Positions 8,320 to 13,654 of a DNA stretch of 64,000 nucleotides are shown piece after piece. The notes beneath the pieces were generated by a model, which had not been told where the DNA came from, did not search any database, and saw nothing but the letters and a program-made list of their open reading frames with translations. The stretch's first letter is position 1. Each line of letters opens with the position of its first letter. Source of the DNA: Kribbella sp. VKM Ac-2569 (lineage in GTDB: Bacteria; Actinomycetota; Actinomycetes; Propionibacteriales; Kribbellaceae); assembly GCF_004216905.1 (NCBI RefSeq), contig NZ_SGXJ01000003.1:1178001-1242000 (forward strand). Reading direction: 5' to 3'. The position numbers were made by a program, and so were the translations under genes.

Positions 8320-8338
8320 CCTTTAGAGTGTGCCGGTG

Positions 8339-9265
8339 ATGACGACCGAGACCCCGCCCCAAGAGACTGAGCCAGTCAGCGGATTCTGGCGACTGGTTCC
8401 CGAGCCGAGCCTGGACGTCGTCCGGCGCTGGGGCTGGGCGTCGATCGTGGTGAACATCGGCATCGTGGTCACCGGCGGACTGGTCCGGCTGACCGGCTCG
8501 GGGCTCGGCTGCCCGACCTGGCCGTCCTGCACCGACGACTCGTACGTCCCGCACGCCGCCCTCGGCATCCACGGCGCGATCGAGTTCACCAACCGGATGC
8601 TCGGGTTCGTCGTCGCGATCGTCGCGATCCTCACCTGGCTGGTGGTCATGCGCTACCGCCCGATCCGGCGCGACCTGCGCCGGCTGGCGACCGCGGCCGC
8701 GCTCGGGGTCCCGCTGCAAGGGGTGATCGGCGGCATCAGCGTGCTCACCGGGCTCAATCCGTGGATCGTCTCGGCGCACTTCCTGGTCTCGCCGATCATC
8801 ATCACGCTGACGGTCTCGATGATGCGCCGGTCGCGCACCAGCCCGTACCCGCACACTCCCCCGGTGGTCCGCGCACTCGCCACCGCCTCGGTGGTGGCGG
8901 TCTGGCTGACCGTTGCCCTCGGCACCATTGTCACCGGCGCCGGGCCGCACTCGGGCGATCCGGAGACCGGCCGCAACGGTTTCGACCCCGAGCTGGTCAG
9001 CCAGCTGCACTCCGACGTCGTCTTCGGCCTGCTCGGAATCTCGATCGCCCTGGTGATCGCGACCCGCGTGACCGCGACCTCACGCACCCTGCGCAAGCTC
9101 GCCGCCTGGCTGCTCGCCGTCGAAATCCTGCAGGGAGCCGTCGGCTTCACGCAGTACTTCACCGGCCTGCCGTGGGGTGTCGTCCTCGTCCACATGTTCC
9201 TGGCCGGCCTACTGATCGCCCTCGTCACAGCCGTCTACGGCGAACGCGGCACACCCGCCACCTGA
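8339..9265 (+). CDS. ctaA: Heme A synthase (COX15/CtaA)
   Basis: A multi-span membrane enzyme that oxidises heme O to heme A for cytochrome c oxidase. Four helices carry the heme-ligand histidines: HGAIEFTNRMLGF, VSAHFLVS, QLHSDVVFG and LVHMFLAG. The glycine-rich GGLVRLTGSGLGCPTWPSC loop with two cysteines is typical of actinobacterial and Bacillus forms. GTG 8330 is an alternative start 3 codons earlier. The last codons (GERGTPAT) and stop are part of a 28-base sequence repeated at 12346-12373. The heme O supplier ctaB lies nearby, convergently oriented. Confidence 0.95.
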   Translation: MTTETPPQETEPVSGFWRLVPEPSLDVVRRWGWASIVVNIGIVVTGGLVRLTGSGLGCPTWPSCTDDSYVPHAALGIHGAIEFTNRMLGFVVAIVAILTWLVVMRYRPIRRDLRRLATAAALGVPLQGVIGGISVLTGLNPWIVSAHFLVSPIIITLTVSMMRRSRTSPYPHTPPVVRALATASVVAVWLTVALGTIVTGAGPHSGDPETGRNGFDPELVSQLHSDVVFGLLGISIALVIATRVTATSRTLRKLAAWLLAVEILQGAVGFTQYFTGLPWGVVLVHMFLAGLLIALVTAVYGERGTPAT

Positions 9266-9269
9266 CGGG
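9242..9269 (+). repeat. Direct repeat copy 1 (3' end of ctaA)
   Basis: A 28-base sequence consisting of GAACGCGG, one variable base (C here) and ACACCCGCCACCTGACGGG. It recurs at 12346-12373 in the same orientation with one mismatch (27/28). Copy 1 holds the final codons and TGA of ctaA. The two copies bracket 3.1 kb carrying the SCO6745-type and DUF222-HNH genes. Flanking bases do not match. Confidence 0.85.
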
Positions 9270-9354
9270 AAGTGTCGAATCCGGGCCATCTCGTTCGTCG
9301 CAAGGGTCAGAGGCAGGTCACAAGGGCGCTGTCACGACCAAGGAGATGCCGACG

Positions 9355-10173
9355 ATGCCGCACCCACTGGCCAAGGTCCACCGCATGTTCGAGCTCGTCG
9401 AGCCGATCGCCACCGTCACCTTCTCCGAGGCGCCGACCGAGGCGTTCCTGGCCCTCGGCATGCGCAACTACTGGGACGGATACTTCGCCGGCCGAGCCGC
9501 GCCACTGGGTCTCGCACCGGCCGAAGTCATGCATGCGGTCTTCTACAACTTCGCCGAAGGTGAGGTGGCGCGCCACATCCCGTGGGTCTGGGGCAAGACC
9601 ACCCCGGAGGAGGCAATCGCCGTGCGCGAGCGGGGCAGCACCTCCGCGTTGCGGCAGAGGATCGGGGAACTCGCCGACTCCCCTGGTCTGATGCGGGTCG
9701 CCGACCTCGCCACCCGCGCGGCGGTCAGCGCGCCGACCGAGGGCCGTCCGCTGTACGCCGGGCTCCGGGCGCTCGACGTACCCGAGCAACCGGTGGCCAA
9801 ACTCTGGCACGCGGCGACGCTGCTGCGCGAGCACCGCGGGGACGGCCACAACGCCGCCCTCGTCGCGAACGGCATCGGCGGCACCGAGGCCCACGTCCTC
9901 CTGGCTCTCTCGCTCGGAATGAGGCCGGAGGAGTTCGGCCGGATTCACCACCTGCCCAAGCCACAGCTGGCCGCTGTCGTCGACGGGCTGCGCGACCGCG
10001 GCCTCGTAGACGCGGCCGGCGGGTTCACCAACACCGGCCGGCAGACCAAGGAGCGGATCGAGGCCCTCACCGACGAACTGGCAGCACCGGCGTACGACGT
10101 ACTCAGCGCGGACGAGCTCGACGAGCTCATCGCGGGCCTCGAGCCGATCGCCGCCGCAGCACATGCCCATTGA
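9355..10173 (+). CDS. SCO6745-family protein with C-terminal winged helix
   Basis: A 272-residue protein of an actinobacterial family of unknown function. Its N-terminal two thirds are helical (MRNYWDGYFAGRAAPLG near residue 35) and the C-terminus is a MarR-like winged helix (PKPQLAAVVDGLRDRGLVD, then a wing GGFTNTGRQTKERI). The ATG at 9355 is preferred because AAGGAG (9340-9345) lies 9 bases upstream; an in-frame ATG at 9346 overlaps the site. It probably acts as a ligand-responsive regulator, but that is inference. It lies inside the segment bracketed by the 28-base repeat. Confidence 0.82.
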   Translation: MPHPLAKVHRMFELVEPIATVTFSEAPTEAFLALGMRNYWDGYFAGRAAPLGLAPAEVMHAVFYNFAEGEVARHIPWVWGKTTPEEAIAVRERGSTSALRQRIGELADSPGLMRVADLATRAAVSAPTEGRPLYAGLRALDVPEQPVAKLWHAATLLREHRGDGHNAALVANGIGGTEAHVLLALSLGMRPEEFGRIHHLPKPQLAAVVDGLRDRGLVDAAGGFTNTGRQTKERIEALTDELAAPAYDVLSADELDELIAGLEPIAAAAHAH

Positions 10174-10262
10174 CGACCGCGGGGCCGTGCGACAGGTTCT
10201 GGTGGGCCAGGACCTGATATTTCCTGTCCGCACCAACGCGACGCGATACCCGAGCGTATTCA

Positions 10263-10277
10263 GTTGCTGTAAGCAAC
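10263..10277 (+). terminator. Small hairpin downstream of the SCO6745-type gene
   Basis: Arms GTTGCT (10263-10268) and AGCAAC (10272-10277) with a 3-base loop, followed by CTTTGG. It lies 90 bases after the stop at 10173 and upstream of the HNH promoter. It is a weak terminator candidate. Confidence 0.35.
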
Positions 10278-10337
10278 CTTTGGTCAGATCTCCAACTCCG
10301 CAAGGCATTCCGGCATCCATCCGCGAGCGTTCGCGAG

Positions 10338-10366
10338 TTGAGTTCATCGAACACATGTTCTAATAT
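10338..10366 (+). promoter_or_regulatory. SOS promoter with LexA box for the DUF222-HNH gene
   Basis: A -35 TTGAGT (10338-10343), 17-base spacer and -10 TAATAT (10361-10366) end 6 bases before the ATG at 10373, implying a leaderless transcript. Between and over these lies TCGAAC-N4-GTTCTA (10347-10362), one base off the actinobacterial/Bacillus LexA consensus TCGAAC-N4-GTTCGA. LexA bound here would block the promoter, so the gene should be induced by DNA damage. No ribosome-binding site is visible, in keeping with a leaderless start. Confidence 0.75.
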
Positions 10367-10372
10367 AGAAGC

Positions 10373-12283
10373 ATGAGCGAGCCTTCGACCGTCACCATCA
10401 GCACCACCGCCGTACCTTCGGCGCCTGGTGCTGCGGCGACGACCGTCCCTACTCGTGACCGGACGGTCGTGGTGTCTGCATGGAGTGTTTGGGATGACGC
10501 GCCGCTCGACGATGACTACGTGCCAGACGACCTGGTCTACCCGACCGATACCGAACTCCCCGACGGCCCCGCGGTGATCAGTGAGCAGGACCAGTTCGAC
10601 GCCGATCTGGACGAGTTGCTGGGCCGGAATCGCTATTCCCGGGTGGACGAGTTCGAGTGGCAGGAATGGGACGGTGTCGAGCAGGACGCCGCGGAGCGGG
10701 AGATGCTGCGCCGGGAGGCGCCGGCCTGGGTGTTGCTGCCGCCCGGCGGCGCGCTGGCTGCCGCGTTGGAGGAGACCCGGCCGGAGGCTATGTCGCCGGT
10801 GGCGCTGATCGAGTTGATGAAGGCCGCGGACCGGCTGATCAGCTGGGGCGAGGCGATCAAGGCCGGTGCGACGGCGTCGTTCGTCCGGCAGCGCCGCGCC
10901 GAGCACCGCGAGTCGCCGCGCCCGACCCAGCTCGATTCCAGGGGTCGCCCGGTCGACCCGGAGCGGTCCTGGCACGGCGAGATCGCGCTGGCCCTCGGCC
11001 TGTCCCCCAACACGGTGGGGCGGCGGGTCGAGACCGCGCTGCGTCTGACCTCGTCCCTGTCCGCCACCTATTCGGGGTTGCGCTGCGGCGCGTTGACGTG
11101 GGGCAAGGCGCTGGCGATCTCCGAGGCGACCAGCCAACTCCCGGATGAGGCCGCACGAGCCGTGGAGGCGCACGTGCTGAAACGCGCCGCCAAGCAGACC
11201 CATCGGAACCTGCTGGAGTCGCTGCGCCGCCAGGTCGCCAAACACGTCACCACCCAAGCTGCCGGCGACCACCGCGCCGCGGTCGCCGAGCGGACCTGCA
11301 AGATCGTCCCGCTGGCCAACGGCATGGCCGGGCTGTGGATCGTTCACACCTCCGACAAGATCCAGCAGATCTGGGTCACCATCCAAGCCATGGCCACCCT
11401 CGCCAAACGCGGAACCCGCACCACCAACCCCACCAACCCCACCACCGATGCCGCTGCGCCGCTCGGCGCGCCCGCGGATCCCGAGCCGACCGCTCCCACG
11501 GACGCCGGCTCAGGAAGCCCGGACGCCAGACCCGATCCCGATCCGGATCCGGGCGCCACCCACGACGACATCGCCGCCACCGACACCGCCGCCAGCGCGG
11601 ATGCCGATGCCGGTCCGGATGCGGATGCCGGTGCCGGTGCCGAGAAGGACGTCCGGACCGCCGAGCAGCGACGTGCGGATGTGGCTGCGGATCTGTTCGA
11701 GCACATCCTGCGCAACGGGCTGGACTGGCTCGGCCGACGCCTGCCCGACCAGCACCGCCGCCGCCCACACATCGAGGTCGTCATCCCGGCCTCGACCCTG
11801 CTCGGCCTGGACGACGACCCCGCCGACCTCACCGGCTACGGACCCATCCCCGCCGAAATGGCCCGCCGCATCGCCGCCGACGGCACCTGGCGCCGGCTCC
11901 TCACCGACCCCGTCAACGGGTCCGTGCTCGAGGCCTCCACCACGCGCCACGACCCGGGTGTGTTGGTCACCGAAACCCTGCTTGCCCGACACCCGGTGTG
12001 CGCCTGGCCCGGCTGCAACCGCACCTCCCGCGACTGCGACCGCGACCACCTCACCCCGTTCACGCAGTCAGGCCGCACGAGTCTGACCGGGATGGCGCCG
12101 TACTGCGAATACCACCACGTCATCAAGGACACCAAAGCCTGGGGATGGAAAACCACCGCTCACCCCGACGGCTCCGTCACCCTCACGACCCCTACCGGCC
12201 ATCGATACACCACCGTCCCACCGGCCCGCGGACCGATCGCGCCATCAGCAACCCCACCGACGAACGATCCACCGCCGTTCTGA
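10373..12283 (+). CDS. DUF222 / 13E12-type HNH endonuclease-domain protein
   Basis: A 636-residue member of the DUF222-HNH (REP13E12-type) family. The DUF222 helical region spans roughly 130-330. Residues about 355-430 are a low-complexity Ala/Asp/Pro-rich linker made of repeated GAT/GCC codons. The C-terminus carries the HNH nuclease with a zinc knuckle: CAWPGC, then CDRDHLTPF and CEYHH (about 545-590). The catalytic DH and the HH pair are intact, so it should be active. In mycobacteria such genes are multicopy, DNA-damage induced and linked to mobile elements. Here a LexA box controls it and a direct repeat brackets it. Confidence 0.9.
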   Translation: MSEPSTVTISTTAVPSAPGAAATTVPTRDRTVVVSAWSVWDDAPLDDDYVPDDLVYPTDTELPDGPAVISEQDQFDADLDELLGRNRYSRVDEFEWQEWDGVEQDAAEREMLRREAPAWVLLPPGGALAAALEETRPEAMSPVALIELMKAADRLISWGEAIKAGATASFVRQRRAEHRESPRPTQLDSRGRPVDPERSWHGEIALALGLSPNTVGRRVETALRLTSSLSATYSGLRCGALTWGKALAISEATSQLPDEAARAVEAHVLKRAAKQTHRNLLESLRRQVAKHVTTQAAGDHRAAVAERTCKIVPLANGMAGLWIVHTSDKIQQIWVTIQAMATLAKRGTRTTNPTNPTTDAAAPLGAPADPEPTAPTDAGSGSPDARPDPDPDPGATHDDIAATDTAASADADAGPDADAGAGAEKDVRTAEQRRADVAADLFEHILRNGLDWLGRRLPDQHRRRPHIEVVIPASTLLGLDDDPADLTGYGPIPAEMARRIAADGTWRRLLTDPVNGSVLEASTTRHDPGVLVTETLLARHPVCAWPGCNRTSRDCDRDHLTPFTQSGRTSLTGMAPYCEYHHVIKDTKAWGWKTTAHPDGSVTLTTPTGHRYTTVPPARGPIAPSATPPTNDPPPF

Positions 12284-12345
12284 GCGGTCTCACGCTGCCT
12301 CGTCGACCGACGAACTGTTCTGGTCGGGAAGCCAGGTCTTCCAGA

Positions 12346-12373
12346 GAACGCGGGACACCCGCCACCTGACGGG
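12346..12373 (+). repeat. Direct repeat copy 2 (duplicate of the ctaA 3' end)
   Basis: 27 of 28 bases match 9242-9269; the ninth base is G instead of C. In the matching frame it would again encode RGTPAT and a stop, but no gene uses it here. It lies 62 bases after the HNH gene stop and 34 bases before the ScyD-type gene stop. It reads as a leftover of the ctaA end displaced by an insertion or duplication. Confidence 0.8.
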
Positions 12374-12380
12374 CGCCCGC

Positions 12381-12419
12381 GCGTCACTCAGTACTTCACC
12401 GCGTCACTCAGTACTTCAC
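12381..12419. repeat. Tandem 20-base duplication at the ScyD-type gene end
   Basis: GCGTCACTCAGTACTTCAC occurs at 12381-12399 and again at 12401-12419, a head-to-tail duplication with a 20-base period. The right copy contains the last codons and TGA of the leftward ScyD-type gene; the left copy is extra. It lies 8 bases from the 28-base direct repeat, so this junction appears to have been rearranged more than once. Confidence 0.8.
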
Positions 12420-13520
12420 TCTGTAGACCGCACCAGGCCCGAAGACCGGCGCGGAGACGAACAGCTGCCCTGCGCGGTTGAAGCCCGCACCGCCCGGCAG
12501 TGTCAGCTGATCCTTCACCAGCTCGCGCTTGTACCCGGCCCGGTGAGACCTGCCCGAGTACTGCAGGAACAGGCCGCCCTTCGTCGGGCCGTTCAACTCG
12601 AACTTCAGCCAGCTCGCCTTGTCGAGCTCGACCACCGCGAGCGTGCCCCGCGGACCTCCGGCCAGGTCAACGATCGACGTGTACCCGTCGGCGTACCGCT
12701 GGCAGTTGCCCTTGTACGGCTTGTCCGGGTTGCACACCGCGCCCACCGAGCCCGGCTTGATCCGCCAGATCTGCGACGTCCCCGGTGTGGCCGGGAAGCC
12801 ACGGAGCTCACCGACGTACCAGTAGCCGTCCGAGCCCACTGTCACCGACGTGGCGACGGCCTCGGCCGGGACCGGCGTACCGGCCGGCGGCAGCGGGTGG
12901 CCGTCCGGGTCCGTGGCGGGCAGACCGGTAGGAACCTTCACGACGCGTGGCTTGAGCTTCGCGACGGTCTTGATGTGGCCGTTCGGCCAGACCCGGAGCA
13001 GGTCGTTGCCGGCGGCGTCCGAGACCAGGACCGTTCCATCACTCAGCGCGGCGACGCCGAACGGGTTGGAGTCGGTCGGGTTCTCTTCCAGGTCGTACGG
13101 GTCCGGGTCCTTCTTCTGGTACGCGCCGATGTCGGCGATCTTGACCGGCGCCTTCCCGTATCGCATCCGGTAGAGCGTCGTGCTCCCCGGAAGCGGCGGC
13201 TGCCCCGGCTCTCCGCCCGCGCCGGTCAGCGCGTACGTCGTACCCCACTTGTTGGTGTCGATCGCCGGCGGGAACCCACCCGTGCCCGGCACCGTGCCGA
13301 GCTTCAAGGTCCGCTGCCCGTCTGTCACGTACACCGAGCCGTCGGTGACGCTGTAGATGACCTTGTTCCCGTACGTCGAGACGCCGCGCGGACCGTTGAG
13401 ACCTGTTGCCACCGGCTTCAGACTCGAGTGGCTGTGACCGGCGTCGGCCTGTCCCGCGACCAGAAGCGAACCGGTCAGTGCGAGTGCCGCGATCGCGGCG
13501 ATGCGTGTTCGTACCCCCAT
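12408..13520 (-). CDS. Secreted ScyD/ScyE-family protein
   Basis: A 370-residue protein of the ScyD/ScyE family, beta-propeller-like proteins with six-bladed NHL character; the function in actinobacteria is unknown. The start ATG at 13518-13520 gives MGVRTRIAAIAALALTG, a signal peptide with likely cleavage after AGQADA (about residue 27), so the protein is exported. AGGGGG lies 6 bases upstream of this start; earlier in-frame starts would bury the signal. Blade-like repeats such as LNGPRGVSTYG, NPFGVAALSDGTVLVSDAAGNDLL and VTVGSDGYWYVGEL are visible. The stop is inside a tandem duplication. Confidence 0.85.
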   Translation of the reverse strand: MGVRTRIAAIAALALTGSLLVAGQADAGHSHSSLKPVATGLNGPRGVSTYGNKVIYSVTDGSVYVTDGQRTLKLGTVPGTGGFPPAIDTNKWGTTYALTGAGGEPGQPPLPGSTTLYRMRYGKAPVKIADIGAYQKKDPDPYDLEENPTDSNPFGVAALSDGTVLVSDAAGNDLLRVWPNGHIKTVAKLKPRVVKVPTGLPATDPDGHPLPPAGTPVPAEAVATSVTVGSDGYWYVGELRGFPATPGTSQIWRIKPGSVGAVCNPDKPYKGNCQRYADGYTSIVDLAGGPRGTLAVVELDKASWLKFELNGPTKGGLFLQYSGRSHRAGYKRELVKDQLTLPGGAGFNRAGQLFVSAPVFGPGAVYRVKY

Positions 13521-13538
13521 GCGAATCCCCCTGCTGTT

Positions 13539-13554
13539 ACGCCTCCCCAGGCGT
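13539..13554. promoter_or_regulatory. Palindrome upstream of the ScyD-type gene
   Basis: ACGCCT (13539-13544), CCCC, AGGCGT (13549-13554): a perfect 6+4+6 dyad 19 bases upstream of the start and just before its ribosome site. It could be an operator or a 5'-leader hairpin; nothing else identifies it. Confidence 0.35.
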
Positions 13555-13654
13555 GGAACCCCCTCCACAGGCAGGTGCCCATCGCAACATCAGATCACGA
13601 TCAGGTCAACGGGGAAACGCACCGCGCCCGCAGCACGACTCTCAGTGCCAGATC

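Follow-up and report, generated by a model that had tools for sequence, protein, structure and literature searches.

How did two genes lying between ctaA and the convergent gene of a ScyD/ScyE-family protein come to be bracketed by two nearly identical copies of the ctaA 3' end? The locus lies in a 64,000-nucleotide stretch of the soil bacterium Kribbella sp. VKM Ac-2569 (contig NZ_SGXJ01000003.1, positions 1,178,001 to 1,242,000), referred to here as the window, whose source genome (8.4 Mb, 13 contigs) is designated G000. A repeat search of the window recovers a direct repeat of 28 nt at exactly 9242-9269 and 12346-12373, with differing flanks, a spacing of 3104 and 27 of 28 positions identical (96%), the sole difference being C/G at base 9. 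A preliminary description of this DNA had reported the repeat in these terms, taking copy 1 for the last ctaA codons together with the stop, as the coordinates bear out (stop at 9263-9265), and copy 2 for a non-coding duplicate after the HNH gene, which is likewise true, with the added point that RNAfold predicts copy 2 to be part of a hairpin. The features concerned, in window positions, are as follows.

8330-9265, plus strand: ctaA (COX15/CtaA), heme A synthase; Pfam COX15-CtaA, 3e-27; its 3' end is copy 1
9242-9269, plus strand: repeat copy 1, comprising the ctaA coding end, the stop and 4 intergenic nt
9272-9302, plus strand: conserved sequence ahead of the SCO6745-family gene (GTGTCGAATC ... 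CGTTCGTCGC), recurring before SCO6745 homologues at unrelated loci
9346-10173, plus strand: SCO6745-family (HTH_67) gene; Pfam HTH_67, 2.3e-79; NCBIfam SCO6745_fam_HTH, 6.6e-86; start at 9346 or 9355
10347-10362, plus strand: LexA/SOS-box-like palindrome, TCGAACACATGTTCTA, 10 nt before the DUF222 start codon
10373-12283, plus strand: DUF222 (13E12-type) gene with HNH-like C-terminal motif; Pfam DUF222 (PF02720), 3.1e-11, above cut-off
12284-12345, plus strand: flank from the DUF222 stop to copy 2; its copy-2 side is common with G032, its stop side with G022
12344-12389, no strand assigned: predicted hairpin (RNAfold) adjoining the ScyD-like gene, a putative terminator with copy 2 as one arm
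12346-12373, plus strand: repeat copy 2, a second ctaA 3' end, after the DUF222 stop and before the convergent ScyD-like gene
12380-12419, plus strand: tandem duplication of 20 bp where the ScyD-like gene ends (repeat search of the window)
12408-13568, minus strand: ScyD/ScyE-family protein gene, convergent with ctaA; NCBIfam NF033206, 1e-64

The 18-base core of the repeat, CACCCGCCACCTGACGGG, has two exact matches in the 8.4-Mb genome, namely the two copies, and one further place with two mismatches; the same pattern read backwards, as a control, is found at two places with at most two mismatches. The HNH-like motif of the DUF222 protein was read by eye, and no HNH model matched it at 0.001. 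Neither of the two insert proteins matches a recombinase, integrase or transposase family, and a phage or defence origin of the insert was rejected, there being no PHROGs or PADLOC match for either protein. The conserved sequence before the SCO6745-family gene, which resembles an ECF-sigma promoter, starts two bases past copy 1, and a pattern of about TGTCGRATC ... CGTTCGT is conserved before genes of this family at unrelated loci (L088-L093, L095-L098). The palindrome at 10347-10362 departs by one mismatch from TCGAAC(N4)GTTCGA, given in PMC4181829 as the LexA/SOS-box consensus of M. tuberculosis, the host here being Kribbella.

The explanation that we favour, with a probability of about 0.6, is that DNA was inserted at the junction of ctaA and the ScyD-like gene with duplication of a terminator shared by the two genes, that its cargo is composite, that it entered by recombination, and that it was lost exactly in the line of G024 and G029.

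The junction was surveyed in 38 Kribbella genomes including G000. The distance from ctaA to the ScyD-like gene is at most 101 bp in 23 of them and more than 250 bp in 11 (G000, G003, G004, G011, G016, G017, G018, G022, G026, G032 and G034), the junction of G022 (K. sindirgiensis) spanning two contigs; of the remaining four, G002, G023 and G028 have no ScyD-like gene beside ctaA and G009 gives a short match only. The 11 filled junctions are not 11 independent events, because G011, G026 and G034 have in common an insert protein about 1,320 residues long, with alike sequence starts. An empty site holding a single 28-mer, which the preliminary description had proposed to look for in close relatives, is present in G024 and G029, whose upstream sequences are 95.8% and 95.0% identical to the window, and also in G021 and others. 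The interval between ctaA and the ScyD-like gene in the window is therefore an insertion. No paper on a Kribbella insertion hotspot was found among the literature matches listed.

When the fetched DNA was scanned for a second ctaA end, the scores were 25 for G000, 25 for G032, 18 for G017 and 17 for G034, and at most 13 for all other genomes, a reversed-tail control reaching up to 12. A second end is visible at four of the 11 filled junctions and was not found by this sequence scan at the other seven, the continuing contig of G022 scoring 11, within the range of the control. The cargo varies. Genes for a TetR regulator and for a carboxylesterase lie in the G017 insert; the proteins of the G034 insert include one with kelch repeats and one of helix-turn-helix type; neither insert has a DUF222 or SCO6745 match. 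Both outcomes that the preliminary description had named as refuting its model occur: the ctaA end is present twice, with neither gene, in G017 and G034, and in G022, which carries both genes, the second copy was not found. Of the ten filled sites besides that of the window, six were scanned through ten of their proteins, none of which matched a recombinase family. In the G017 insert (L058, 1169-1199), the TetR open frame runs into the ctaA end, and ctaA sequence may supply the coding end of this gene; the carboxylesterase frame stops about 25 bases short of copy 2.

What would keep both copies in place is indicated by the pairing potential of the junction. An ungapped helix search was applied to 14 junction sequences picked by hand and by motif, in which the ctaA end and the bases after its stop form 10-12 pairs at the single sites of G024, G021, G033, G019, G012 and G013, and 12-14 in copies 2 of G032, G034 and G017, none of these helices having more than one mismatch. 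Two-sided changes preserve a pair in G013 and in copy 2 of G017; one change leaves a helix mismatch in G021 and in G033. Copy 1 of G000, G017 and G032 yields only 4-7 pairs, in other registers. The ungapped search gives only 5 pairs, in another register, for G029 and for copy 2 of G000; RNAfold predicts for the latter 20 pairs, including G-U pairs, with two single-base bulges (z -2.2, 100 mononucleotide shuffles), and also pairs the ctaA-end region in G029. Beside the ScyD-like gene, RNAfold reaches z <= -1.5 in 29 of 34 genomes and finds no structure beyond shuffles in the other five (G004, G007, G020, G027 and G030), G004 being a filled site. At filled sites without a copy 2, a different strong hairpin is predicted in G003, G011, G016, G022 and G026, a weak one in G018 (-1.7) and none in G004. 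On these folding predictions, the hairpin at the junction is probably a shared bidirectional terminator with the ctaA coding end as its left arm. Both copies of the repeat would then persist because copy 1 is the ctaA coding end and copy 2, as we propose, a terminator arm.

The distribution of the insert bears on its age and make-up. Trees of the upstream flank and of the joined flanks place G022 outside ((G024,G029),(G017,G000)), every fork being starred; the downstream flank alone gives a less resolved tree (four of seven forks starred), and in the ctaA tree G000 joins G024/G029 with weak support (97/64). G000 and G022 have the same left junction and both genes, their SCO6745 genes being 90.8% identical and the nearby flanks 93-96%. 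Since the identity of SCO6745 is somewhat below that of the nearby flanks, the insert is probably old: the ancestor of G000 and G022 would already have carried it, and a deletion running exactly from repeat to repeat would have removed it in the line of G024 and G029. Two independent gains would be an equally short history. The pattern suggests that such inserts can be lost scarlessly. A recent import from a G022-like line was rejected, the ctaA of G000 having no matching tract: its last 104 bases show 8 differences to G022 and 3 to G024. The last 104 bases of G034 ctaA show 3 differences to G026, 7 to G012 and 7 to G019, a weak hint of a donor tract, the preceding window showing 11 to G026 and 9 and 10 to G012 and G019.

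The flank from DUF222 to copy 2 matches between G000 and G032 with a score of 38, reached by none of 1000 shuffles, the best of 31 other copies scoring 21; at the ctaA site of G032 there is no SCO6745 match. Because G032 has the same DUF222 right flank and no SCO6745 there, the 3.1-kb unit is probably composite, its DUF222 right junction being common with G032 and SCO6745 having joined separately. In G022 the ScyD-like side of the junction has probably been exchanged, because the ScyD-like gene is 77% identical to that of the window, as against 91-99% for other 500-base flank windows (one, which includes the start of the ScyD-like gene, is at 87%). The ScyD-like gene stands off its species' place in the tree in G022 and G017, and exchange between species at the junction is suggested for both.

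Under the favoured explanation, ctaA and the ScyD-like gene would share one bidirectional terminator hairpin at the uninterrupted junction seen in near relatives, and the inserted DNA would part the two convergent genes and leave two ctaA ends, copy 1 being retained as ctaA coding sequence and copy 2 because it supplies an arm of the terminator for the ScyD-like gene. Entry would be by recombination between Kribbella chromosomes, homologous on one side and illegitimate on the other, without a nuclease or integrase encoded by the insert, and exact loss between the repeats in the G024/G029 line would be a later step. Combined homologous and illegitimate recombination is, we infer, the most likely origin of the duplicate.

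An unlikely alternative to such recombination is capture of a fragment at a staggered double-strand break, where fill-in of long overhangs and end joining would duplicate the gene end in one step. It would yield a target duplication without a recombinase, in keeping with cargo that differs between carriers at one site, and an extra 20-bp tandem duplication adjoins the site; however, it has left no direct trace, and the two ends in G034 differ in allele type (GCAACGTAG vs GCGACCTGAAACGGGCG), which displacement by an imported end fits better. Gene 3' ends are classic integration sites, and the 28-mer could be an att core at the ctaA 3' end, used by an integrase that acted in trans or has since been lost. 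The copies 2 of three insert types (G000/G032, G017 and G034) do start matching ctaA within four bases of a common point. Site-specific integration is nevertheless quite unlikely, given that no integrase family appears in the two proteins of the window or the ten from six other filled sites, that the second copy is not seen at seven of the 11 filled sites, and that the boundary common to copies 2 coincides with the base of the hairpin, beyond which no constraint would be expected in any case; the near-identical start base across different inserts may mark just this limit.

There remains the mobility of the DUF222 gene itself, which in G000 occurs in the window and at two other loci. The flank survey took in 39 loci and the window, chosen among the matches listed for the genus and hence a subset of the genus copies; 33 of the 39 and the window gave a copy with both gene ends (L205, L208, L212, L214, L217 and L226 fell out, and L100 was not entered), and of these 34 copies 33 have both flanks, L228 being without a right flank. 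This survey could not register the repeat of G032, where ctaA is farther away than the 3 kb covered. The left and right flanks of the window match with a score of 25, the next best of the 33 copies scoring 14 (observed median 12) and 600 mismatched left/right pairs reaching at most 20 (median 12), so that none of the 32 other both-flank copies surveyed has a flanking repeat above background. The second DUF222 locus of G000 (contig C3) is filled in G000, G024 and G029 and, split over two contigs, in G022; in G017 a different gene occupies it, and ten retrieved relatives have an empty site. Its junctions revealed no direct repeat.

An SOS-box-like site was found at 35 of 42 DUF222 loci scanned, 33 with one mismatch and two with two, and is absent from L074, L207, L208, L210, L212, L217 and L218, among which contig ends truncate L208, L212 and L217. 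The palindrome stands just before the DUF222-HNH start, and in most cases TTCTAATAT or something close to it comes next. Repeats of the GTCACCGATGTCCTGA type, which resemble IS481-type ends, occur upstream of DUF222 at L083 (G000), L084 (G029), L085 (G024), L099 (G005) and L074 (G032), those of G032 lying within its insert at ctaA, and in G024 the DNA inserted upstream of DUF222 (L085) is flanked by a target repeat of about 15 bases. Trees from two parts of the DUF222 gene disagree and copies of the same genome often cluster, a pattern that suggests gene conversion between copies of one genome; conversion between REP13E12 copies, which recombine often, is reported for M. tuberculosis in PMC13061034.

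The SCO6745-family gene has homologues of at least 79% identity at other loci in G019 (K. rubisoli), G037, G014 (K. monticola), G011, G002 and G023, of which only those in G037 and G014 have common surroundings; in G017, G021, G024, G029 and G033 no homologue exceeding 39% was found. Homology at other loci begins next to the position of the repeat, where the conserved upstream sequence also begins. That SCO6745 moves on its own, as one gene between repeats belonging to it, was rejected, the best flanking repeat at another locus scoring 14 vs 25 in the window. A transposable 3.1-kb unit was likewise rejected: the pair of SCO6745 and DUF222 was seen solely at the ctaA site, in G000 and G022, with no second copy in G000 and no DUF222 protein match in the 8 kb taken around each of ten SCO6745 loci from other genomes (L093 has short weak DNA matches only). 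A search for the term SCO6745 found no paper naming it in the library covered.

That DUF222-HNH is a homing-type mobile gene which cut the ctaA end and inserted with target duplication is highly improbable, and as a source of the repeat already largely refuted: DUF222 genes are multicopy and lie at varied places, most loci scanned carry the SOS-box-like site and, in M. tuberculosis, REP13E12 copies recombine often (PMC13061034), but HNH-driven insertion fails on the 32 repeat-free copies of the flank survey, on the second locus with its empty relatives and on the two ctaA ends of G017 and G034, whose inserts have no DUF222 match. Nothing found suggests that the nuclease gene moved itself. The model of the preliminary description stands as regards an insertion with single-copy empty relatives, and finds no support as regards mobilisation of a 3.1-kb unit by the HNH nuclease.

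More tentatively, and as an idea that we think rather doubtful, convergent junctions with a terminator in a coding end may act as a trap, in which the survival of an insert mostly depends on its having duplicated that end. If this were true, the repeat would be a footprint of selection for a terminator and not of a mobility enzyme, and would also offer a route for exact loss; some apparent target duplications in GC-rich genomes would then have been misread as signs of mobile elements.

Several known systems invite comparison. As in the 13E12/REP13E12 family (DUF222-HNH, Actinobacteria), the gene of the window has a DUF222 domain, several copies in its genome, a LexA-box-like promoter and trees hinting at conversion between same-genome copies; unlike in REP13E12, phage integration or self-mobility is not shown here, and the flanking repeat is not a shared trait of the copies surveyed. 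In this instance, a nearly perfect target-site duplication that brackets a gene from a family linked to mobile DNA has a plainer reading as the duplication of a gene end that doubles as a terminator arm, and a single flanking repeat is insufficient for inferring mobility of 13E12/DUF222 genes. Phages and integrative elements integrate at gene 3' ends, and like them the locus has the target gene end on both sides of the insert; it differs from them in the lack of any integrase found, in its small, carrier-variable cargo and in the seven of 11 filled sites where no second copy is seen. Homology-facilitated illegitimate recombination, described in PMC3240628 for competent bacteria and for E. coli conjugation, is homologous on one side and illegitimate on the other and needs no recombinase; the displaced gene end of the recipient would be copy 2, although no donor tract was found in the ctaA of G000. 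Finally, the single hairpin predicted between ctaA and the ScyD-like gene is like the bidirectional terminator of convergent genes, and unlike it in that one arm is coding sequence, duplicated at insertion.
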